A stretch of 57,076 nt of DNA from the IMG/VR virus record IMGVR_UViG_3300037225_000975, positions 1-57,076 of that record; one strand, given 5' to 3'. The position numbers and the translations under genes were made by a program. Every line of letters starts with the position of its first letter. Position 1 is the first letter of the stretch. Below are positions 3,652 to 57,076 of this stretch, one piece after another. Source of the DNA: a virus. Below the pieces are notes generated by a model. That model saw only the letters and a list, made by a program, of their open reading frames with translations, did not search any database and was not told where the DNA came from.

Positions 3652-4479
3652 CTACCGCGGCAGCTGAGACAGACCGCGCTCGATTTTCTGTTGCGGAGTC
3701 AGCTTGTCGGAGGGAATCGCTCCCTTGCCGGTGCCAGATCCTTGTGGCATCCCGCCACCGGACCGGCCGCTCGACTCGAAGGCTCTCGCATACTTGGGAT
3801 TGGCTCGCATCTCCGCGACCAGTCCCTCTATGCTGAGATACCCGCCTCGTCCGTCCGAGCGAGGATCACCCTCGTCGTCGACGACTCTGACGACATACTT
3901 GCCGTCTTCCTTCAGAAGTACACACTGGTCCGTGATGAGCCGCGACAGCAGCTCGACGGATCCTTTCGCTGAAGCGAGAGCCGAGATGGCTTCCTTCTCG
4001 ATCAGGTGAGTCGCCAGGGACTCCCCCATCTCGCGAACTCGCGCCTCGTGCTCGGTCTTGAGCTGCTGGATGGTCTGCTCCGTTTCCTTCTTGATCTTGT
4101 CCAGCGCTCCCTTTGTGCGGCCGTCCGTGTCGCCGTTCTTCTCCTCGATCTCGCGGATCTTCTCGAGCTTCGCCTTGATATCTTCCGGCTCCATGCCCAG
4201 CTCCGTCCATCGACGGATCTGCGCCTTCATCTCCTTCGCCGCTTTGCGCTCGCTGTCGAGCGCCTTGGTGAGGCCGGTGTTGTCGAGCCGCTTGGCGAGA
4301 ACGGGGTCGAGCTTGTACTTGCCATCCTCTCCCTTGGCGTAGAGGGACTGGTACTGCTTCGGCACGGTGGCGACGTCGTCGACCTCCGGCGCGATCACGA
4401 CGTCGTCGCCATCGCCCGCTGCGCGGGCGCTGGTAGCTGCGAGCGCCATGGCGCCGATGGCTAGTGCGAGAATGAACAT
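3652..4479 (-). CDS. scaffold-like protein with a signal-peptide-like N-terminus, 275 aa
   Basis: Residues ~30-190 are highly charged and helical (SERKAAKEMKAQIRRWTEL, KLEKIREIEEKNGDTDGR, KKETEQTIQQLKTEHEARV), as in internal scaffolding proteins. The C-terminus is basic and Gly/Ser-rich. The gene lies directly upstream of the capsid gene, the classic scaffold position. Oddly, the protein begins MFILALAIGAMALAATSARA, a textbook Sec signal peptide ending in an AxA cleavage motif. The start is well supported by CCAGGAG upstream of the ATG at 4479; the next in-frame ATG (codon 11) has no ribosome binding site. Confidence 0.8.
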   Translation of the reverse strand: MFILALAIGAMALAATSARAAGDGDDVVIAPEVDDVATVPKQYQSLYAKGEDGKYKLDPVLAKRLDNTGLTKALDSERKAAKEMKAQIRRWTELGMEPEDIKAKLEKIREIEEKNGDTDGRTKGALDKIKKETEQTIQQLKTEHEARVREMGESLATHLIEKEAISALASAKGSVELLSRLITDQCVLLKEDGKYVVRVVDDEGDPRSDGRGGYLSIEGLVAEMRANPKYARAFESSGRSGGGMPQGSGTGKGAIPSDKLTPQQKIERGLSQLPR

Positions 4480-9157: not shown

Positions 9158-10519
9158 CTAGAATCCTTTCACGACGGCGTCGCCGTCATGCTCGCATAGT
9201 TCGTTGAACGCGCCGGATGACGCGTCCACCTGGTCGTCGTGGCATCCCTTCGTGGGGAAGGACTCCAGTTCTGAGAGATATTCCTCGTTCCAAGGCGCTC
9301 GCACCAGCTTCACGTTGCCAGCCAGGCATTGCGCCGCGTACGGTCTGGCGCGCGTCTCCTTGCTCGCCGTGACCGGCACAGCGTAGACGTCGCGTCCCGA
9401 GAGGCGGCTGATGAGGTAGTGCATCTCCGCCTTGCCCGCCTGGCCAGGATCTTGCTCGAGAGCGATCGGGCAGCGAGGTTCCTGGGCGCTGACGCGCTTG
9501 ATGTTCTCGAGCACCTTCCCGGGACCGTCGTGGAATCGACGCACGTCGACCACGTAATACGTGCCGTTCTTGACGACCATGCGCACGCCGACCGTCGCGT
9601 CAGGATCGAGATTCGAGTCCGATATCTCCGTGGCGGCGCGATCCCAGTAACGGATCTCGTTGTCGAACTCTTTCGGAACGGCGTCCACCACGTCGAACAT
9701 CTGCCTCTTGAAGTACGAGCCGGCTTGCTGCCTGGCGTTCCAATTACCGCCATACAGTCTCGAGCGCTCGTGCGCCGGCAGCGACTTGAGGTTGGCGACG
9801 TAGCCCGGATCTTTCGCCAGCAGCAGCGGATTGTCGTGGATGTTGGCGCTGATGAACGTCACCGATTTCGGCTCGAGGCCTCGATCGACCAGGGACTTCT
9901 TCGTGTCGCCCCAGACGATCTCGCCCTTCTCTCTGGCCATCCATCGCACCTTGGAATCTCGCTCGGGAATCGGGTAGCCCTTCTCCTCGTCGATCCACCA
10001 GCTGATGAACCGCCTCACCCAGCTGTCTGGATCCGGGTTGCAGGTGGCGCGCACGTACGGTCTCACGCCACACATCGAACGGTTTCGAGAGAGCATGTAG
10101 AAGAATTGCTGCTGCTCGAAATGGCACAGCTCGTCGAACGCGATGTAGCAGATCTGCGATCCCTGCCAGTCATACACGTTCTTGGCATGCTGCATGTGAG
10201 CGAACTTGATGCGGCTGCCCGAGACCGGATCAAACCATTCCAAGGCAGACTCTTTCGGAACCAGGCCAGCAGGTCCGTAAATCTCCCTAGACGTGTCCCA
10301 CAATCCGCCTGGTGCCGTGATCTGCGGATAGGTGCGACGAAAGATGACCGCCGAGAACCCCGGCACGTGCACGTTGCGAAGTCCCTCGAGCAGCTCGACG
10401 AACGTCTTGCCTCCCCCAGCTGCCCCGCCATAGATGATGATGTCCGCGTCGATGGAGCAGAACCGCGCCTGCGGTCCCTCCTGCGGAGCGATCATGATCT
10501 CTTCGGCGACTGCAGTCAT
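9158..10519 (-). CDS. terL: terminase large subunit (ATPase and nuclease)
   Basis: This is the packaging motor. The Walker A motif GGAAGGGKT lies at residues 31-39 and the Walker B IAFDE at 126-130, with a C motif region around RATCNPDPDSW. The C-terminal RNase H-like nuclease shows RYWDRAATE (Asp ~293), EQDPGQAGK (~356) and CHDDQVDA (Asp ~429/430). The 453-residue length is normal. The start at 10519 overlaps the preceding stop as ATGA; an upstream in-frame ATG at 10573 would overlap that gene by 58 bases and is less likely. The order TerS-like protein, two small proteins, TerL, portal is typical. Confidence 0.95.
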   Translation of the reverse strand: MTAVAEEIMIAPQEGPQARFCSIDADIIIYGGAAGGGKTFVELLEGLRNVHVPGFSAVIFRRTYPQITAPGGLWDTSREIYGPAGLVPKESALEWFDPVSGSRIKFAHMQHAKNVYDWQGSQICYIAFDELCHFEQQQFFYMLSRNRSMCGVRPYVRATCNPDPDSWVRRFISWWIDEEKGYPIPERDSKVRWMAREKGEIVWGDTKKSLVDRGLEPKSVTFISANIHDNPLLLAKDPGYVANLKSLPAHERSRLYGGNWNARQQAGSYFKRQMFDVVDAVPKEFDNEIRYWDRAATEISDSNLDPDATVGVRMVVKNGTYYVVDVRRFHDGPGKVLENIKRVSAQEPRCPIALEQDPGQAGKAEMHYLISRLSGRDVYAVPVTASKETRARPYAAQCLAGNVKLVRAPWNEEYLSELESFPTKGCHDDQVDASSGAFNELCEHDGDAVVKGF

Positions 10520-10806
10520 CGCGGCAGCTTCACCTGGGCTAGGTGGCGATTGGCGAGATCCTTGCGCATCCATTCTTGCGCTTCTGACTTGCTATGAGCG
10601 AGCTGGCAGTCTCCGGCGACGCGCCAAGCGCCGTCGTGACCTCTGATGAAGCCCACCCAACAGACCCGCAGTTTCGTCGTCGACTCTACCTGCCGCTGGT
10701 TGAAGCAGTCGAAGCAGTACTTCGCCATCGGCACCCGGCGCATCGGCTGCCCGCACTTCGCGCAGGTCTTGTCGACGAGAATCGCCGGAGCGTGCGAGTA
10801 CGTCAC
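10516..10806 (-). CDS. zinc-ribbon protein upstream of terminase, 96 aa
   Basis: CAKCGQPMRRVPMAKYCFDC at residues ~15-34 gives two CxxC pairs, a small zinc-ribbon. The rest includes VCWVGFIRGHDGAWRVAGDC and a helical C-terminus (EAQEWMRKDLANRHLAQ). It overlaps terL (ATGA) and the 68-aa gene by four bases, so all three are probably translationally coupled. A regulatory or DNA-recognition role in packaging is possible but untested. Confidence 0.8.
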   Translation of the reverse strand: MTYSHAPAILVDKTCAKCGQPMRRVPMAKYCFDCFNQRQVESTTKLRVCWVGFIRGHDGAWRVAGDCQLAHSKSEAQEWMRKDLANRHLAQVKLPR

Positions 10807-11009
10807 GATCCGATCTCCTGGATGGCGCGCTTACGGAGAAGCATAGCTGCGTCTCGCTCCACCATCGACATCTGGTCGTCGCGGCGTCTCGCTCGCTCCT
10901 GCCTCTCGCGAATGGCTCGCGCAGCGCTGAATCCTCTCGTCACGTCAGCCCAGAATCTCTCGCGCGACCGGCGGCAGCGCTCGTCGACGAAACCGACGAT
11001 GCTGCTCAT
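10803..11009 (-). CDS. small basic helical protein, 68 aa
   Basis: The product is Arg-rich and helical throughout (ERCRRSRERFWADVTRGFSA, IRERQERARRRDDQMSMVER). It overlaps both neighbours by four bases (ATGA type). Location between the TerS-like gene and terL suggests a packaging accessory. Family unknown. Confidence 0.75.
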   Translation of the reverse strand: MSSIVGFVDERCRRSRERFWADVTRGFSAARAIRERQERARRRDDQMSMVERDAAMLLRKRAIQEIGS

Positions 11010-11341
11010 GACTTCTTCTCTCTGCCGTTTGGAGGCAGCATGATCGTGACTCGTGGTCCTGCTTGGAGAGGCTGGCCGTCAGGTCCCTGGAGCGTGGTGA
11101 TGGCCGCTCGTTTCGATTCGCGATAGGGACCGAGCTCCTTCTCGGCGGCGAACCGCATCGATGGCGGCAGGATCTCCATCGCGATCACGCGACCTGGTTC
11201 TCGAATCCAGCGAAAGCGTTTCGCGTCCCATTTTCCTTTGTCGTCGAGTTCTTTCTGAGTCATGAAGCCCAGGCCGACGACGTCGCCTTGAGCGTACATC
11301 TCGAGATTTCGAATCGGATCGTGTTTTTTTCTTGCCGCCAC
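11006..11341 (-). CDS. putative terminase small subunit, 111 aa
   Basis: It is the first gene of the packaging/head block, downstream of the 471-base repeat-rich gap. The C-terminal half (PPSMRFAAEKELGPYRESKR followed by AAITTLQGPDGQPL) resembles the conserved helix of small phage terminase-like proteins, in which an A.KELLPY..PKRAA pattern recurs. The N-terminal part is basic. The frame opens with GTG at 11341, whose ribosome binding site is weak; an ATG at codon 15 is the alternative. The assignment rests on position and a short resemblance, so it is tentative. Confidence 0.5.
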   Translation of the reverse strand: MAARKKHDPIRNLEMYAQGDVVGLGFMTQKELDDKGKWDAKRFRWIREPGRVIAMEILPPSMRFAAEKELGPYRESKRAAITTLQGPDGQPLQAGPRVTIMLPPNGREKKS

Positions 11342-11429
11342 GATCGCGATCTTGCGTCGATGGCTCTGAAATACACGAAAGCCTCACTCTGAGGCCAGAG
11401 ATGAGGGCGGGTCCATTTATGCCGGAGGG

Positions 11430-11507
11430 GCTGAGAATAACTATTTGGAGTTGCAAGTGATTGCTACCGCAACGATTTGCAACTTCCGAATCGGGGTTAT
11501 TCTCACG
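11430..11507. repeat. dyad element A (GGTGAGAATAAC hairpin, ~78 bases)
   Basis: GCTGAGAATAAC at 11430 and its reverse GTTATTCTCACG at 11496-11507 form the outer stem. Inside, GGAGTTGCAA pairs with TTGCAACTTCC with one bulge. The inner sequence GAAGTTGCAA is partly shared with element B. A long stem-loop in RNA or a cruciform/dyad site in DNA is possible. Confidence 0.7.
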
Positions 11508-11674
11508 AAAGGGGGGGTATATAGTATGCATCTCCTTCCTCTCATCCTTCCTCAGCTACTTCCGAAGCAGCTCATTTTCTCATTGACTTCTTAAGATATT
11601 AGCTCTCTAATAACCACACTACAATAGGTACGGATTAGAGATACATGTCATACCCCCCCTTTGGTGAGAATAAC
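11496..11674. repeat. 179-base element with ~38-base inverted ends and G7/C7 runs
   Basis: The left end GTTATTCTCACGAAAGGG continues as GGGGTAT and ATGCATCTC; the right end is its reverse complement with few differences (ATGTATCTC, ATACCCCCCC, TTTGGTGAGAATAAC). The centre is AT-rich and includes CTTAAG (11590-11595). It also holds a sigma70-like pair on the plus strand, TTGACT (11583-11588) with 17 bases to TCTAAT (11606-11611). Confidence 0.7.
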
Positions 11675-11739
11675 TAGCCGGCCGAAGTCGCAACTAGCAC
11701 GCCCGCCATCGCTTACGACTCGGTCTGGTTATTCTCACC
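11663..11739. repeat. dyad element B (GGTGAGAATAAC hairpin, 77 bases)
   Basis: GGTGAGAATAAC (11663-11674) and GTTATTCTCACC (11728-11739) form a perfect 12-bp outer stem. Inside, CCGAAGTCG pairs with CGACTCGG with one bulge. The spacing is the same (77-78 bases) as in element A. Both share the outer stem and the same GAAGTYGCAA-like inner arm. Confidence 0.75.
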
Positions 11740-11812
11740 CCTTCGGACGAAACCCCTCCCCGACCCCTTCCGGCCGCTTTTCGCCCCTCGCGATTCCAAA
11801 TCATCAAGCTCG

Positions 11813-12421
11813 CTATCTCGGAATCGCTGGACCCCATCCGACCACCTCCGCCACCCTGCGAGCCACCGCCTCGATCGATTCCGAGGCGTCGCAGAAAACG
11901 ATCTCGTCCCCGCCCCGACCCACTTCCTGGTCTCGATACGCCTCCCTCACTTTCTTTCCGAGCGAGTCGAACCTATCCGGGACCTCCCCTCCCCTGGCCG
12001 CGATCCTGGCATCCAGCGTCGAGTCGTCAGCTTCCAGGAAGACGACCTGAGACCAGCTCGGCTGACGAGCCCATCCTTCCAGCACCTTGCAGATGTCCGC
12101 CCCCTCGGCCTGGCGCATCGCGATCCTGTAAGCCAGATTCGAGACCCCGCACCGGTCCATCACCACCCGCAGCCCGGTCAGACGCAGGTTCTCCGCTCGC
12201 CGCATGCAGTCCACGTCCACCGCCGCGAAGGCGAGAGCCATCGCCTCCTCTCCCAGCTCGAACGCCGGATCCTTCAGGGGACCCCGGAGCAGCTCGCCAA
12301 GCCGCGTCCCTCCAGGGCATCGCAGGTAGACGGCACCCCACCCGCGTTCCAGCTCCCTGGCCACGCTGGTCTTCCCGCACCCGTCCGGACCTTCCAAGCA
12401 GCAGATCAGCGGATCGGTCAT
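11813..12421 (-). CDS. thymidylate-kinase-like nucleoside monophosphate kinase, 202 aa
   Basis: The P-loop GPDGCGKT lies at residues 11-18. It is followed by CPGGTRLGELLRG (~35-47), which matches the PGGT..GE segment of thymidylate kinases, and VMDRCGVSNLAYR (~87-99), equivalent to their DR..S..AYQ substrate motif. The enzyme should phosphorylate a deoxynucleoside monophosphate. In a phage encoding a dCMP-modifying enzyme it could act on a modified nucleotide, as T4 gp1 does, but that is inference. The start at 12421 overlaps the preceding stop (ATGA). It is the last gene before the non-coding region. Confidence 0.85.
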   Translation of the reverse strand: MTDPLICCLEGPDGCGKTSVARELERGWGAVYLRCPGGTRLGELLRGPLKDPAFELGEEAMALAFAAVDVDCMRRAENLRLTGLRVVMDRCGVSNLAYRIAMRQAEGADICKVLEGWARQPSWSQVVFLEADDSTLDARIAARGGEVPDRFDSLGKKVREAYRDQEVGRGGDEIVFCDASESIEAVARRVAEVVGWGPAIPR

Positions 12422-32365: not shown

Positions 32366-32625
32366 TTGCGCTTCCTCGCCAAGCTGACGGTTTTCTTGAC
32401 GACCCGCGAGCAGATGATGTCCGCCGCGAAACTGTTCACAAAGAGATGCGTCGGGTAGACCTCGCCGAATCCGAAAGTGATGTTTTCGATATTCGGCTTT
32501 TCGTTAATCGTGAGCTCGTGGCACCAGAAGCGAAAGACTCGGCCTTTCTGATCGCCAGCGCGGACATCCACTGTGACGAGATGCGGGCGAGGCTTCTTGA
32601 TGCTGGTTCTGCGAACTGCAGTCAT
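32362..32625 (-). CDS. unknown basic protein, 87 aa
   Basis: AAGGAG lies a few bases before ATG at 32625, overlapping the previous stop. The product is basic at the N-terminus (MTAVRRTSIKKPRPHLVTVD), has a beta middle (VRAGDQKGRVFRFWCHELTI) and a basic end (VVKKTVSLARKRK). Nucleic-acid binding is possible. It is coupled to the SNF2-like helicase, so the pair may act together. Confidence 0.7.
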   Translation of the reverse strand: MTAVRRTSIKKPRPHLVTVDVRAGDQKGRVFRFWCHELTINEKPNIENITFGFGEVYPTHLFVNSFAADIICSRVVKKTVSLARKRK

Positions 32626-32882
32626 GACGTTCTCCTTCGCCCTTCGGCGTCGTATGCGTGTGAGCGGATTCTGGCTCGGCCGCGGCTCCTGTAGAAGCCG
32701 GTGCCAGCATTGTACTGGTGCCTCATCCACGAGACGCGCTGGATCGATGCGGCTCGCTTATTGGACGGGAATGCCGCCTGAGCAACCAACCTGAGTTCCT
32801 GGTCGGTGAGCGGCGTTGAGGATTTCTTGCGAAGTAGCTCGTTCATTTCGAACAGCTGCTTCCAGAGATCGACGATTTTCAT
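32622..32882 (-). CDS. unknown protein, 86 aa
   Basis: The ATG at 32882 is preceded by AAAGGA. The product has a Leu-rich N-terminus (MKIVDLWKQLFEMNELLRKK), SSTPLTDQELRLVAQAAFPS, and a basic Tyr/Arg-rich C-terminus. It is the first gene downstream of the 32.9-kb repeat element; the GGTGAGAATAACTA copy lies 20-34 bases upstream of its start. Confidence 0.7.
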   Translation of the reverse strand: MKIVDLWKQLFEMNELLRKKSSTPLTDQELRLVAQAAFPSNKRAASIQRVSWMRHQYNAGTGFYRSRGRARIRSHAYDAEGRRRTS

Positions 32883-32901
32883 CGAGTCCTTTCTTTCCGA
32901 A

Positions 32902-33008
32902 TAGTTATTCTCACCGACTACCCCCCTTGATATGTATCTCTTAACTTACTCTCTTAAGAGAGAAGAGAAATTAGTTCAAGAATAGTATAAGGGGGCTACT
33001 TGGTGAGA
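32902..33008. repeat. dyad element related to the 11.5-kb region, with covarying G/C runs
   Basis: The left arm is TAGTTATTCTCACC (32902-32915) followed by GACTACCCCCC and ATATGTATCTC. The right arm is AAGGGGGCTACTTGGTGAGA (up to 33008). The centre is AT-rich with a perfect CTCTCTTAAGAGAG palindrome. Compared with 11496-11674, the C and G runs are exchanged in both arms, so arm complementarity is kept. The right arm is less conserved after GGTGAGA. Confidence 0.65.
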
Positions 33009-33191
33009 GAAAGTCTTCAGAGGACAAATCACGAACCAGCGCTGTGCTTGTTTCCATGAAAATGTCGCTCGACGACCATCGTCAAAAGCCACGACGATCA
33101 TGACCCCGTGGACCCGACGATGCCTCTGGACCACGACTCCGCTGCCGTGGTACAGATGCTCGACGAGGTCTTTGGGGTGAGGACATCTCAT
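32976..33191 (-). CDS. small beta-domain protein, 71 aa
   Basis: MRCPHPKDLVEHLYHGSGVV followed by HGVMIVVAFDDGRRATFSWK is a compact beta domain, HGxGxV...VxF.DG, as in small Tudor/SH3-like domains of phage and helicase C-termini. Its last residues overlap the right arm of the repeat element, so the end may be poorly constrained. It lies 22 bases after the 149-aa gene; the ribosome binding site is weak. Confidence 0.5.
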   Translation of the reverse strand: MRCPHPKDLVEHLYHGSGVVVQRHRRVHGVMIVVAFDDGRRATFSWKQAQRWFVICPLKTFSHQVAPLYYS

Positions 33192-33213: not shown

Positions 33214-33663
33214 TCACCAGACTTCGAAACCTTCGCCGCATCCGCGAAGGAACGCGACGAACTCCTCGAGATGCTCGATGCTGGCTGAGTATGGCGATTC
33301 TTCGATCTTCGTAGGGGAACCGCTCTTGAGTTGACCTGCGCGATCGACGTGGACATCATCACGCTTCCAGTTCTTGACGTGGATGACGTCTAAACCAGCG
33401 GCCTTGATGGCCATCACCTTCCTGGCCATCGCATCGGAGAGTATCTTGACTTGATCAGCAGTGCGAGGACCATCTCCATCGTTGAATGACATGCCCTTCA
33501 AGATCTCGTCAGAGAGACTAGTTTTGCCAGTCTCGGCGCGATGCTCATTCTCGCACTCGATGATGAGATAGAGAATTGGTCTCCAGGACCAGATGTTGGC
33601 CCTGAAATATTTGCCTGCTTCGGTGACGGGCTTGATGCCCGAGACGTCCATGCCCATGATCAT
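33214..33663 (-). CDS. conserved phage protein of unknown function, 149 aa
   Basis: The start at 33663 overlaps the HTH gene stop (ATGA). The N-terminus (MGMDVSGIKPVTEAGKYFRA, NIWSWRPILYLIIECENEHR) matches a widespread but uncharacterised phage protein family with the pattern G.DV.G..P..E.G.YFR.N.W.WRPL. The rest is helical with a short beta part (IHVKNWKRDDVHVDRAGQ). Function unknown, probably early. Confidence 0.8.
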   Translation of the reverse strand: MIMGMDVSGIKPVTEAGKYFRANIWSWRPILYLIIECENEHRAETGKTSLSDEILKGMSFNDGDGPRTADQVKILSDAMARKVMAIKAAGLDVIHVKNWKRDDVHVDRAGQLKSGSPTKIEESPYSASIEHLEEFVAFLRGCGEGFEVW

Positions 33664-33839
33664 CTCCAGGAGTGGGTGAAACCACGAATGATGTAGCTGA
33701 TATTGGACTGGGTGGTGCGGTACATGACGCCCAGATCTTCCTGACTCATCAGCGATTTCCTGGCAAGCCACCTGATAGCGCGCACTTGGAAATCGTGGAG
33801 GCGATGAGTTCTGTGACGACGATCGATGCCGTGAGCCAT
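33660..33839 (-). CDS. small helix-turn-helix protein, 59 aa
   Basis: The ATG at 33839 follows CAGGGA; an in-frame ATG at 33887 without ribosome binding site is the alternative. The segment FQVRAIRWLARKSLMSQEDL with GVMYRTTQSNISYIIRGFTH looks like a helix-turn-helix (S.EDLGVMYRTTQSNISYII). It is the first gene of the early minus-strand operon, so it could be an early regulator acting on phage promoters, for instance at the GGTGAGAATAAC sites. Partner or target is not shown. Confidence 0.65.
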   Translation of the reverse strand: MAHGIDRRHRTHRLHDFQVRAIRWLARKSLMSQEDLGVMYRTTQSNISYIIRGFTHSWR

Positions 33840-33974
33840 GAGGTTTCCCTGGGGTTGGACGGGCTCATCATGGCGCCATTTCGACATGTAAACTAGAGAC
33901 CTTTGGTTCTTTCAGAAGCATGCTTTAGGCCCGATTCATCAGTTTTCGCAGTTAAGTAAGTTACCTAAGTCATT

Positions 33975-34004
33975 ATTATCACAGTATCTATGATTTCCTG
34001 TTTA
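33975..34004 (-). promoter_or_regulatory. candidate early minus-strand promoter
   Basis: On the minus strand, -10 element GATAAT (33975-33980) has an upstream TG (extended -10 TGTGATAAT). A -35-like TAAACA (33999-34004) lies 18 bases upstream. It would drive the early block starting with the HTH protein. The -35 overlaps the plus-strand promoter -35, so the two are divergent and may compete. Confidence 0.45.
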
Positions 34005-34028
34005 CATATCTGAAGCAAGTGCTAATCT
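34001..34028 (+). promoter_or_regulatory. candidate plus-strand promoter
   Basis: TTTACA (34001-34006) and TAATCT (34023-34028) with a 16-base spacer lie about 30 bases before the first plus-strand gene, whose ATG (34060) has AGGAG upstream. The region between 33900 and 34028 is AT-rich compared with the rest of the window. Likely sigma70-type, read by host polymerase. Confidence 0.5.
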
Positions 34029-36648: not shown

Positions 36649-36926
36649 AGCTAGTCATTCGGAAGAAGGGGGAGGCGGCGAGAGCCGTCTCCCTCGAATC
36701 CTTGGCAACGACCGAGCTCGAGTCGTCAGGTCAGGCCGGGATCAGTCCCAGGGAGTTTCATCGACGTCATCCCGGTCAAGATCTGATCCATCACGTGAAA
36801 GCTTTGGCTGCCGCCGCGAAGAAGCTCAGAGCCAAAGCATCCTGGTCGCCCATCAGAGGCGATCAGGGTGCCGCCCAGGAAGCTCGATACCACATGCACG
36901 GCATCGAGCCGGCGAAGGAGGACTGA
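36645..36926 (+). CDS. unknown basic protein, 93 aa
   Basis: A GTG start at 36645 overlaps the previous stop (GTGA) and its own TGA overlaps the next ATG (TGATG). The product is basic and helical (VKLVIRKKGEAARAVSLESL, HVKALAAAAKKLRAKASWSP). DNA binding or association with the next (glycosylase-like) protein is plausible, not shown. Confidence 0.6.
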   Translation: MKLVIRKKGEAARAVSLESLATTELESSGQAGISPREFHRRHPGQDLIHHVKALAAAAKKLRAKASWSPIRGDQGAAQEARYHMHGIEPAKED

Positions 36927-37447
36927 TGCGAGACTTCAAGTTCGACGGATCGCGGTTCGCCGGGGTCACGACCGCTGACTTCAATCATGGAATAGGACCC
37001 AGGCGCCCGATGATCATCGGCCAGGCACCGGCTCGATCTGGAGGACCTCCCATCACCGGTCGATGCGGCGAGAAGCTCGCCGACCTGCTCGGTATCTCGA
37101 TGGAGAAGTTCCTGGAGACGTTCGTTCGAGGCAACCTGATCCAGGAGTGGCCTGGCAAGTCAGGTCGAGGCGATGAGTTCCCTCGATCGTTGGGAATCAT
37201 GGCGGCGTTTCAGATCATGAGCAGTGGCGCCTTGAAAGATCGCCGGATCGTTCTCCTGGGTCGCGAGGTGGCGAGATGTTTTCGCATCACGCCGGACAAA
37301 GCTGACTACCTGGACAAGGTGGATCTGGTTGGCGGTCGAGCTCTTCTGCTTCCTCACCCATCAGGCGTCTCGAGATGGTGGAATTGTTCTCGACGATCCA
37401 CCGCTGCAAAGAGAGCTCTCCGGGCATTCCTGGCTGAGTACTTGTGA
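36926..37447 (+). CDS. uracil-DNA-glycosylase-fold protein, 173 aa
   Basis: MIIGQAPARSGGPPITGR (~28-45) matches the N-terminal loop of the UDG superfamily (G.APG..E/G). DRRIVLLGREVARCF forms the central strand and LLPHPSGVSRWWN (~143-155) is the C-terminal HPS motif region with the DNA-intercalating loop. The classical Asp/Asn activator after GQAP is not obvious; the position reads Ala/Arg. Possible roles: removal of uracil from phage DNA (dCMP deaminase raises dUMP), inhibition of host UDG, or modified-base handling. Coupled to the preceding gene. Confidence 0.8.
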   Translation: MRDFKFDGSRFAGVTTADFNHGIGPRRPMIIGQAPARSGGPPITGRCGEKLADLLGISMEKFLETFVRGNLIQEWPGKSGRGDEFPRSLGIMAAFQIMSSGALKDRRIVLLGREVARCFRITPDKADYLDKVDLVGGRALLLPHPSGVSRWWNCSRRSTAAKRALRAFLAEYL

Positions 37448-53211: not shown

Positions 53212-56200
53212 TTAGTAGAGACGATACCAGACAGTGTTGTAGTAGATGAACGATACGCTGGTATCGGCGAGAAGCGCGGGCGGCGCGTTGTTGATCGACT
53301 GCCCGGCGTTTGGGCTCAACGTGAGGCTGGTCACTGCGCCGGCGGTGACGATGGTGTAGACCTTTCCGTTGATCGGGCCGCTCGGCATCGTCAGGGTGAA
53401 GGTTGCGATCGTGCTGGTGTTGGTGTTGAGCGTGGTCCAGGCGTTGTCGTTGATGACCAGCGACCCGGCAGCGGCCCAGGACGAGACGTTGCCTCCGATG
53501 GCTCCGTCAGCCAGGCCACCGACAATCGCCGTCCCCAAGTTGTCCACCTTGAAGTACGAGGTGCCGTTGACCTGGCAGTCGATGAGGTTGCCGACGAATC
53601 CAGAGGTCGCGTTGATGCCCAGCCCGGTTCCAGCGGTGTTCCAGCCGGTCGAGGTCGTGCTGTTCGGCTCAATGAGCAGTTGCGGCTTGGTTGTCGTCGC
53701 GCTGCCGCCGGTGTACCACGAGCCAGTAAACAGGAGCGCGGACTGCGAGGCATTCGGGCTGTTGCTGAAGGTGTTTCGCGCCTCGTAGCTGTTGATCCCG
53801 ACATTGCCGGACTGGTAGAAACCGAACCGGGTTCCTGAGCCAGACGAAGGAATGGCGAGGTAGATGCCGTAGAACGTACCCGAAGTTCCGAGAAGGTTCG
53901 CATCTACCCTGAGTCCGTACATCTGCGTGATGTTGTTGACTCTCGTGACGCTGATGGCGAGCCCGGCCATCCAGTTGGTCGTCGAACCACCGCCAGCGTT
54001 GGTGACCGCGATGTTGGCGCCGTAGATGTTGCCGGTCGAAGAACCGGATGCGTCCAGCGAGACGTTCAGGCAGTTCACCTGACCAGCGCCAGAGTTGATG
54101 CCAGTGAGCGTCAGCATGCTCGCCGCGCTGGCATAGGTGCCAGTGAGCGCGACGACCGAGCCGTCATAGGTAAAGTTGGCGCTGCCGTGGACTGTGTTGG
54201 CGCCTGAGTCGCCGTAGGCGATCTGCGTGTTGGAGAGCGTGCCGGTGATGCCGCCACCAGCGGCGCCGAGCTGCACGGTCGCACCATTGATGCGGACATA
54301 CATCGCCGTGGTCGTCGTCCAGATGTCGCCATCCACCGGCGTTGTCGGAGCGGCACCGTGGGGAACGTTCAGGGAAGACTTGGCTGTGGTTCCCACGCCG
54401 AGAGTCAAGAATGAGGTGGTGGTGGCGGTGTTGCCGATGCCGGTGTCGCCGTTGAGATAGTTCAACGTGGAGGCGCCGGACTGGTAGAAGCCGTAGACGG
54501 TCCCGCCGCTCAAGCTGGCGAGATAGACGCCGTAGGTGGTGCCTCCACCGGTGGCGTTCAGGCTCGTGATGCTGATGCCGTAGGTCGTCGCGCCGCCGGA
54601 GCTCGTCACCGACGACATCTGGAGGCCGTAAGCTCCGATGTTCTTGCTGCTGACGTTGTTGATCGTGATGCCGCTGGCAGAACCAGAGGTCGCTGCCGTC
54701 ATGTTGACGTGCGAGATATAGATGCCAGTACCGCCGGCGGAAGTTGCTCCGGCCCCATACACGATGTCGATGTGCAGGCCGTTGACCGTCGGGCCGATGC
54801 TGGTCGTCGAGCTGACGATGGGGGCGATGAGGATTCCGTCGACGGTCACCGTCGCGCTCGAAGCAGCAGAGATGATCGGCGCAAGCCAGATCGACCGATA
54901 CGTCAGACTCGTCGACCCGCCACTGGCTGAGAGCGTGGACCCGTCGGTGATCGTGCTGATGCTGGGCGACCCGCTGACGTAGGTGGCAGGAGCGCGGCCG
55001 AATGTGAGACCTGAGCCAGTTGCCAGGTAGGTCAGCTCGGCCAACCCCTGGATGGAGTTTGCCGTCACGGCTCCGAACGCGATCTGCGTTGACGTGATCG
55101 AGCCGCCGATGGTCCCGCCTCCGCCAGCCGCCGCCCAGGATAGATTTCCAGCGCCATCGTTGGTCAGCACCGTGCTCGCGCCGCCCTGGCTGCTCGGCCA
55201 TGAGTAGGACACGGCCTTGAGGAGCGACAGATCGCCGTTGCTATTGACGGTGAACTTATCGACGCCGCCGTACTCCATGTGCAGCAGATTGACCGTCAGA
55301 CCAGTGACGCTCGTGTTCACCGTGTCGACCGCGAGGACGTTGAAGGTCGTGTTGGTGTTCGAGGCGCCGGTATTGAACGTCGGCTTGTGGTACGAGCAGT
55401 AGAACGTGCGCGTGTTCGTGTCGTTCTTGGTGATCGTGGACGAGGTGTAGAAGCTGCTGACAGCCTGATCGGCAGCAGTGTTCAGTGTGGCACCTCCAAC
55501 CGTTAGCGAGGCGGTCTGATCAAGCGTGGCAGTGCCCATGCCGACCTGCCCGAATGTGCCGGCACCAGCCGCTCCGGTGATCCACATGGTCGGCGTGGTG
55601 CAGTTGAGGCCGAAGTTGATCGTGCTGCCCTGCACGGGCGTGAAGCGGTTGGCCCCAGATCCGGCTCCGATGCCGAACATATACACGTTCGCCATGTTGG
55701 AGACCACGATGTTGGAACCCATCGTGTAGAAGTTCGAGTAGTAGGGTCCAGACGTCGTGACCGACGTCAGCCCGCCGATCAGATGGGCGTTGTTGATCGC
55801 GTTGTTGGTGACGATTCCGCCACCAGTCGACATGATGATCGTTTGGGTGTCGCCAGCAGTGTCGCTATTCCCACCGATATTGAGAACGAACGTGTTGCTC
55901 TGATTGCTGGTGATCTGATTAAGGTACTGTCCCAAGGTGATCTTGCTGCCTGCCCACGTGCGGATATTCCGCGCAGTGAGCGAACCATCAGACAGGACGC
56001 TGGCCTGGGAGACGCCACCAGAGAGCAGGTTGAGCAGGTTGACCGTCAGGCCCGTCACCGACGTGTTGGTCGTGTCGACTGCGAGGACGTTGAAGGTCGT
56101 ATTGAGATTGCTTCCGCCGGTGTTCAGCGTCGGCTTCAACAGATTTCCATAGAAGACCCGCGTGTTCGAGTCGTTCTTGCTGATCGTCGAGGTTTCGCTG

Positions 56201-57076
56201 ATCGTCGCAACCGACTGGTCGGCCGCGGTCGACAGGTTCGCGCCGACGAGGTTCAGCGTGGCGGTGGCGGCCAGCGATGCCGTGCCGATGGCTGCCTGGG
56301 TGGTGGTCAGCGAGTTGACCGACTGCAGATAGCCTGCGCCTGGGCTGGCGGTGAAGGTGCCGCCGACTTGCATGCCGCCGTCGCCCCAGATCCGCACCTT
56401 CTCGGAGGTGACCACGGTCCCTGGCGCGGTGGTGAAGAATCCGATGCGCGCACCCTGGGCGGTGTCCGTCCAGTTCTCGGCGGCGAACATGGACAGGTAG
56501 GCGCGGGCAGAGGCAGAGTACCCGGTCGCTCCGTAACCGCGTGCCGAGATGTGGACCATCTCGTCGCCGAGCTGCAGCGCGGTCGGGCCAGAAGCGTTGC
56601 CGCGGGCGGCGCGTCCGGAGAACGAGACGTACTGACCGATGCCGTAGACGTCGATGTTGATGCGTCCGACGGCCGCGTCAGCCTGCTGGATCTCGAGCAG
56701 CGTTCCGGCGGGAGGGGCGGTAGGAGCGGAGGCGTTTTGAGACAGGGTGAGCAGGTTGGAGACGTAGGTGAAGGTCGAGCTGCCGGCGATCTGGTTGGAC
56801 GTCGCCGCGCCGTAGGCCACCTGCCCGGCGGTGATCGAGCCACCGATGGCGCTGATCGAGGCGGCGGTGATCGTCGCCGTGCTGACGGTCGTCAACCTGC
56901 CCTTGGCGTCGTAGGTGATGACCGGGACGACGGTGGCCGAGCCGGTCGGACCGCCGGCGACGATCACCGAGGCCAGCGTCACTGCACCGGACGCGCTCAT
57001 GGTCGCGTCGCTCGACAGCAAGTTCCATGTCAGATTGCCTGCGCCATCGTTGATCAGTATGGTCGCCGCAGCGCCC
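53212..57076 (-). CDS. giant fibre/tail protein, main part (5' end across the contig joint)
   Basis: The frame is open from the window end to the stop at 53212. It joins in phase, through the 36-base overlap, with the ORF ending at base 1, giving ~1426 residues. The sequence is Gly/Ser/Thr-rich with internal repeats: STISKNDSNTRVFYGNLLKP with NTTFNVLAVDTTNTSVTGLT recurs with changes at two places (~56.05-56.2 and ~55.3-55.45 kb). Modules GGSITSTQIAFG, GGSITAGQVAYG and GTLSNTQIAYG recur too. The C-terminus (ITAGAVTSLTLSPNAGQSIN then PPALLADTSVSFIYY) is a typical receptor-binding end. It could be a side fibre, a head fibre or central adhesin. Confidence 0.85.
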   Translation of the reverse strand, partial: GAAATILINDGAGNLTWNLLSSDATMSASGAVTLASVIVAGGPTGSATVVPVITYDAKGRLTTVSTATITAASISAIGGSITAGQVAYGAATSNQIAGSSTFTYVSNLLTLSQNASAPTAPPAGTLLEIQQADAAVGRINIDVYGIGQYVSFSGRAARGNASGPTALQLGDEMVHISARGYGATGYSASARAYLSMFAAENWTDTAQGARIGFFTTAPGTVVTSEKVRIWGDGGMQVGGTFTASPGAGYLQSVNSLTTTQAAIGTASLAATATLNLVGANLSTAADQSVATISETSTISKNDSNTRVFYGNLLKPTLNTGGSNLNTTFNVLAVDTTNTSVTGLTVNLLNLLSGGVSQASVLSDGSLTARNIRTWAGSKITLGQYLNQITSNQSNTFVLNIGGNSDTAGDTQTIIMSTGGGIVTNNAINNAHLIGGLTSVTTSGPYYSNFYTMGSNIVVSNMANVYMFGIGAGSGANRFTPVQGSTINFGLNCTTPTMWITGAAGAGTFGQVGMGTATLDQTASLTVGGATLNTAADQAVSSFYTSSTITKNDTNTRTFYCSYHKPTFNTGASNTNTTFNVLAVDTVNTSVTGLTVNLLHMEYGGVDKFTVNSNGDLSLLKAVSYSWPSSQGGASTVLTNDGAGNLSWAAAGGGGTIGGSITSTQIAFGAVTANSIQGLAELTYLATGSGLTFGRAPATYVSGSPSISTITDGSTLSASGGSTSLTYRSIWLAPIISAASSATVTVDGILIAPIVSSTTSIGPTVNGLHIDIVYGAGATSAGGTGIYISHVNMTAATSGSASGITINNVSSKNIGAYGLQMSSVTSSGGATTYGISITSLNATGGGTTYGVYLASLSGGTVYGFYQSGASTLNYLNGDTGIGNTATTTSFLTLGVGTTAKSSLNVPHGAAPTTPVDGDIWTTTTAMYVRINGATVQLGAAGGGITGTLSNTQIAYGDSGANTVHGSANFTYDGSVVALTGTYASAASMLTLTGINSGAGQVNCLNVSLDASGSSTGNIYGANIAVTNAGGGSTTNWMAGLAISVTRVNNITQMYGLRVDANLLGTSGTFYGIYLAIPSSGSGTRFGFYQSGNVGINSYEARNTFSNSPNASQSALLFTGSWYTGGSATTTKPQLLIEPNSTTSTGWNTAGTGLGINATSGFVGNLIDCQVNGTSYFKVDNLGTAIVGGLADGAIGGNVSSWAAAGSLVINDNAWTTLNTNTSTIATFTLTMPSGPINGKVYTIVTAGAVTSLTLSPNAGQSINNAPPALLADTSVSFIYYNTVWYRLY
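55065..55162. repeat. internal copy of the window's first 98 bases
   Basis: These 98 bases are identical to bases 1-98 of the window. They encode DGAGNLSWAAAGGGGTIGG and neighbours. The repeat inside the fibre gene makes the contig joint ambiguous. Confidence 0.85.
57041..57076. repeat. 36-base terminal overlap with 87-122
   Basis: The last 36 bases equal bases 87-122, in the same strand and codon phase for the fibre gene. This is the second copy of the overlap that closes the circle. Confidence 0.8.

Follow-up and report, generated by a model that had tools for sequence, protein, structure and literature searches.

Inverted boxes shared by two operon heads, early and late, in a tailed phage: putative control sites with an exchanged, still complementary core

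The window analysed here is the whole 57,076-base IMG/VR virus record IMGVR_UViG_3300037225_000975 (60% GC), which reads as a lytic tailed phage. Its predicted genes fall into three transcription units only, two leftward (early and late) and one rightward. The early and replication operon runs leftward from 32.9 to 11.8 kb and encodes an SNF2-type helicase, a nuclease, a Sak4-like protein, DNA polymerase A and a primase, together with a C5 methylase, thymidylate synthase and thymidylate kinase. Also read leftward are the capsid, portal and terminase genes, between 11.3 kb and the left end, and the tail genes, between the right end and 37.8 kb. The short rightward unit occupies 34.0-37.8 kb; one of its ORFs (36926-37447, plus strand) matches the uracil-DNA glycosylase superfamily (PF03167) with a Pfam score right at the cut-off. 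Both ends of the record (1-538 and 53212-57076) fall within one repetitive tail gene, in which 1-124 is 93% like 55065-55188. Hence, this is probably a circular map that the nominally linear record breaks at a repeat, and the late operon would then, we infer, run from 11.3 kb through 1/57076 to 37.8 kb. The ORFs around the two elements described here are the following.

32622-32882, minus strand: 86-aa ORF that opens the early operon, without family assignment; ATG at 32882 with an AGGA ribosome site
33660-33887, minus strand: small helix-turn-helix-like ORF of 75 aa, adjoining element 2; weak match to the repressor family phrog_1468 (E 0.032)
11813-12421, minus strand: thymidylate-kinase-like ORF that ends the early operon and adjoins element 1 on the upstream side
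9158-11299, minus strand: start of the late operon, with three small ORFs followed by the terminase large subunit (9158-10519)

Directly upstream of the first early ORF, at the head of the early operon, lies an inverted repeat that we call element 2. An earlier note on this DNA had placed it at 32902-33008; the element is there, but this span is slightly short, as complementarity extends over 32896-33021. The early gene start that the note had put 20-34 bases away is that of the minus-strand ORF 32882-32622, the first of its operon.

32896-32945, minus strand: left arm (copy 5), with box I GGTGAGAATAAC at 32904-32915 and box II GAGATACATATCA at 32928-32940
32930-32989, no strand: loop, the joint AT-richest 60-mer in the record (73% AT)
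32972-33021, plus strand: right arm (copy 6), degenerate, with AAGGGGGCTACTTGGTGAGAGAAAG at 32989-33013
32984-33011, minus strand: sigma70-like site toward the early operon, TTCTCT-16-TATACT, rank 13 in the record, a consensus match only

The left arm reads GTTATTCTCACC-GACTACCCCCCT-TGATATGTATCTC over 32904-32940 and also carries GATATGTATCTC; the 12-nt core between its boxes contains G6 on the minus and C6 on the plus strand. The right arm carries the complementary G run plus a decayed box. Aligned with each other with gaps allowed, the arms match in 38 of about 53 columns, and the element folds as one long hairpin of about 125 nt. Taken alone, this repeat scores 13.0 (rank 6), a value that several other repeats in the record equal or exceed. 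Thus, element 2 is credible because it is homologous to element 1, and pairing alone would not single it out. An ORF that overlaps the right arm (32976-33191) has a codon score of -14 and is probably no gene.

Element 1, at the head of the late operon, is larger than first noted and forms a 328-nt nested structure with box copies at 11430, 11496, 11663 and 11728.

11421-11748, no strand: whole nested palindrome, four box I copies in the order < > < >
11430-11507, plus strand: hairpin A, in which copies 1 and 2 pair
11496-11520, plus strand: inner left arm (copy 2), GTTATTCTCACGAAAGGGGGGGTAT
11571-11630, no strand: AT-rich part of the loop, third AT-richest 60-mer (68% AT)
11583-11611, plus strand: sigma70-like site in the loop, TTGACT-17-TCTAAT, rank 2 in the record, a consensus match
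11624-11596, minus strand: sigma70-like site in the loop, a consensus match
11650-11674, plus strand: inner right arm (copy 3), ATACCCCCCCTTTGGTGAGAATAAC, with 96% complementarity to copy 2
11663-11739, plus strand: hairpin C, formed by copies 3 and 4 and duplicating hairpin A in inverted orientation

No inverted repeat in the record scores as high as the one made up by copies 2 and 3 (25 bp, 96%, score 22.5; the next scores 15.5), and copies 1 and 4 give an outer repeat of 40 nt at 73%. Hairpins A and C, compared as inverted duplicates, reach an alignment score of 81.5 against 30.3 +/- 5.7 in shuffles. Both elements lie outside the top 25 windows of 130 nt in a genome-wide RNA fold scan, so that short-range folding strength alone is not distinctive, while the repeat score is, for element 1.

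The two elements are connected by their boxes. The arm of element 1 that corresponds to the left arm of element 2 lies on the minus strand at 11674-11638 and reads GTTATTCTCACC-AAAGGGGGGGTA-TGACATGTATCTC, with G7 in its core. These 37-mer arms are of equal length and agree in box I (12/12) and box II (12/13) at an equal spacing of 12 nt, with unlike cores, which bears out the match between the two loci claimed in the earlier note. The sequence TGAGAATAAC occurs in five exact copies in the 57-kb record, where 0.04 are expected, all within elements 1 and 2, and a window scan finds the extended 12-mer and its one-mismatch forms confined to the same places. Box I is fixed in five of six arms, except for one edge base in two copies. 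This 12-mer is the most conserved part and shows no covariation; being invariant and non-covarying, it fits sequence recognition by a protein better than pure pairing, which suggests that box I is read by a sequence-reading protein. Homology does not stop at the repeat ends, since TTCCGAAT precedes the box in copies 2 and 5. This last observation speaks against taking the elements for MITE copies (small transposable elements with inverted repeats), a view for which one could adduce the terminal inverted repeats and the fact that the two copies differ in length and loop. Moreover, no target-site duplication is visible, there are two copies only, both at operon heads, and pattern searches of IMG/VR and GTDB retrieved no similar element; we hold this origin to be most improbable.

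The G and C runs are exchanged between the loci, as was noticed earlier: a C run/G run pair at 32.9 kb stands against G run/C run at 11.5 kb, and the right arm of element 2, with its complementary G run and degraded box, is indeed only partly conserved. This had been taken as compensating change in a base-paired structure. Pairing is kept across the exchange, and this part of the claim holds, but selection for structure is not distinguished from homogenisation by template switching: with two loci and no usable homologues in the collections searched, selected pairing and template-switch copying cannot be told apart. Over 25 paired positions in elements 1 and 2, in counts that come from two loci and from a structure derived from these same sequences, 45 of 50 cells (90%) pair, eight pairs differ on both sides and ten never vary. 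Sliding the arms by 1-3 columns leaves 1-4 both-side differences and 50-60% paired. Within element 1, four both-side changes separate hairpins A and C. Template switching would copy one arm onto the other, and the G/C exchange would then be silent on structural selection, an explanation that is compatible with any function of the elements and that we rate as quite possible, a little below an even chance. The eight both-side changes are clustered in one block (columns 16-24) instead of being scattered, and template switching between inverted repeats is a documented process that could homogenise arms in one step (PMC8794818, PMC8604942). However, both arms and box I survive, arguing for a function of the whole, and the inversion of the core TACCCCCCTT proposed along these lines is not significant: as a single event it has p 0.46 given the run.

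No usable homologues of the elements were found in IMG/VR, phage records or GTDB genomes. The G-run arm pattern has one match, within a coding ORF (L005) and attributable to chance, and neither the C-run arm pattern nor the two boxes at fixed spacing have any. The hairpin pair TGAGAATAACN{44,74}GTTATTCTCA retrieves 14 matches in GTDB, mostly AT-rich and such as chance or unrelated palindromes could give, and one in IMG/VR, in an unrelated 41-kb phage contig (L017). There, three copies of TTGAGAATAAC lie in noncoding DNA at 4325-4420, and two of the three together give a perfect 22-bp palindrome; these copies are probably chance rather than a shared box. Relatives found by protein are distant (terminase about 50% identical, best 52-53%; helicase 33%) and have no boxes, save single chance-level matches in two of three whole records scanned. 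A Planctomycetota contig (L028, 5180-5480) contains a near-perfect palindrome of about 300 bp with no clear ORF and with TTATCGGACA-type repeats in its arms.

The position of the elements is informative. Among all 60-mers of the record, the three highest in AT fall in the loop of element 2 (32930-32989), in the loop of element 1 (11571-11630) and in the divergent gap at 33950-34009. These islands coincide with the heads of the three transcription units, and the elements head both leftward ones. Together with the consensus promoter sites that the elements contain, this leads us to read the elements as operator boxes around the early and late promoters, that is, as paired inverted operator/promoter boxes that would coordinate the two operons, a reading to which we give about an even chance. 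Inverted copies of the 12-bp box GGTGAGAATAAC, each with a second box 12 bp off, would bracket an AT-rich stretch from which transcription of the operon presumably starts. A DNA-binding protein, probably encoded by the phage, would bind the paired boxes at both operons and switch them in a coordinated manner, for example with the early operon repressed and the late one activated. The G/C run may then serve as a spacer, the length of which would count more than its sequence, and the spacer arms would be held complementary by the inverted-repeat arrangement of the boxes; cruciform formation or template switching between the arms possibly helps to keep them so. The strict 12-mer beside a freely varying yet paired core supports such control sites. 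The ORF at 33660-33887 is a candidate, albeit a weak one, for the putative box binder. On the other side, sigma70 matches are easily found in AT-rich DNA, the strongest promoter-like site in element 1 faces away from the late operon, and stricter promoter scans return no site in either element. Ordinary operators also need neither near-perfect arms of 25 bp nor two extra hairpins. In one variant the control sites would act as cruciforms: the protein would read the invariant box only on extruded arms, the core would be kept by pairing alone, and DNA topology would set the switch from early to late. We regard this variant as improbable.

Inverted boxes of this kind are familiar from other phages. 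The phi29 protein p4 represses early and activates late transcription from inverted-repeat sites of the form CTTTTT-15-AAAATG (PMC3100819). The likeness to the p4 sites at promoters A2c, A2b and A3 lies in the use of inverted repeats for an early/late switch, putative in our case. Unlike the elements, however, the p4 sites sit together in one region and are without long paired arms or G/C runs, and the arms here (GTTATTCTCACC-12-TGAYATGTATCTC) depart from the p4 consensus. Cluster K mycobacteriophages carry ESAS, imperfect 17-bp inverted repeats with a variable spacer upstream of certain gene starts (PMC3203893), in which, similarly, the left arm is better conserved than the right. However, ESAS accompany the 13-bp SAS GGGATAGGAGCCC and recur at many genes, while here we see two loci and an unrelated sequence; SAS does not precede the ATG at 32882, where the sequence is CTATTCGGAAAGAAAGGACTCG.

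The main rival to the operator/promoter reading takes the elements for a pair of replication origins, or for one origin plus a fork-arrest site, with common initiator boxes around an AT-rich unwinding region. In SPP1, oriL and oriR are two distant sites of one lytic phage that are both bound by the initiator G38P (PMC3485210), and our record likewise has common boxes at two sites far apart, next to AT-rich DNA, here the AT-richest of the genome. Furthermore, the phage encodes its own primase, DNA polymerase A, helicase and Sak4-like annealing protein. In contrast to SPP1 oriL, which lies inside gene 38, the elements are intergenic, and strand skew does not support them: at fourfold-degenerate sites the skew has no turning point in the elements, its extremes falling at 8.8 and 39.9 kb, and the pattern partly tracks gene orientation. 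An early impression from the raw cumulative GC skew was lost at fourfold sites. No initiator protein was recognised, and no G38P-like gene is found among the genes scanned. Transcription also explains the operon-head position better, and we consider origins rather unlikely.

The folding of the elements could alternatively point to a conserved RNA hairpin in the early and late leaders, acting in antitermination, processing or translation control, in which case the G/C exchange would be true covariation. Folding of the operon-strand RNA exceeds that of shuffled sequence (z -7.2 for element 1, -3.6 for element 2), and the eight both-side changes also speak for this reading. A precedent exists in HK022, where two similar cis-acting put RNAs, each of about 70 nt with two stem-loops, lie in two early transcripts and act without a phage protein (PMC9378689), and our phage resembles it in having a pair of similar structured elements, one for each of two operons. 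However, an inverted repeat folds on either strand, and as DNA the elements give z -7.1 and -2.2, respectively. Pairs other than Watson-Crick comprise nine G-T on the plus strand and three on the minus strand (in overlapping stems); there is no wobble bias to the operon strand, hence the RNA reading is not favoured. The elements differ from put in size and form, being a hairpin of about 125 nt and a nested structure of 328 nt with no strand preference. The stems also lack the following T run typical of a terminator, and a 12-mer invariant in both arms would be odd for a stem that merely pairs. At the gathering score, covariance models of Rfam 15 detect only a tRNA in the window, and allowing E values up to 1 adds no credible match in the two gaps. 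Taken together, we think a leader RNA doubtful at best. Promoters of the N4 virion RNA polymerase combine conserved bases with inverted repeats in which other bases are free if the hairpin forms (PMC4496689). Unlike the elements, these hairpins fit in a 17-base stretch; they need the virion RNA polymerase, a gene for which was not recognised among the ORFs scanned here.

The place of element 1 just upstream of the terminase operon raises the question of a packaging site, a pac or cos region of which element 2 would be a diverged duplicate. This leaves the copy at the early operon unexplained, and genome ends were not located. In two terminase relatives, hairpins of 25-27 bp stand directly upstream of the putative terS (L011, 2468-2552; L012, 2998-3092); these are the strongest near terS and are unrelated in sequence to the elements. 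We therefore judge packaging very unlikely.

Thus, operator/promoter boxes remain our preferred reading. Inverted control boxes at phage operon heads are a known kind, as in phi29 (PMC3100819) and the cluster K phages (PMC3203893), and the sequence of the elements is without counterpart in the collections searched. What is unusual is the variant, a nested palindrome of four boxes paired with a reduced copy, the core being changed on both arms. The two elements are a natural pair that separates box sequence from arm pairing, since an identical box stands on G-run and on C-run arms, and this makes selected compensation and template-switch homogenisation testable against each other once relatives turn up. 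If the operator/promoter reading is right, the elements would be the master control sites of a phage without close relative in the collections searched.
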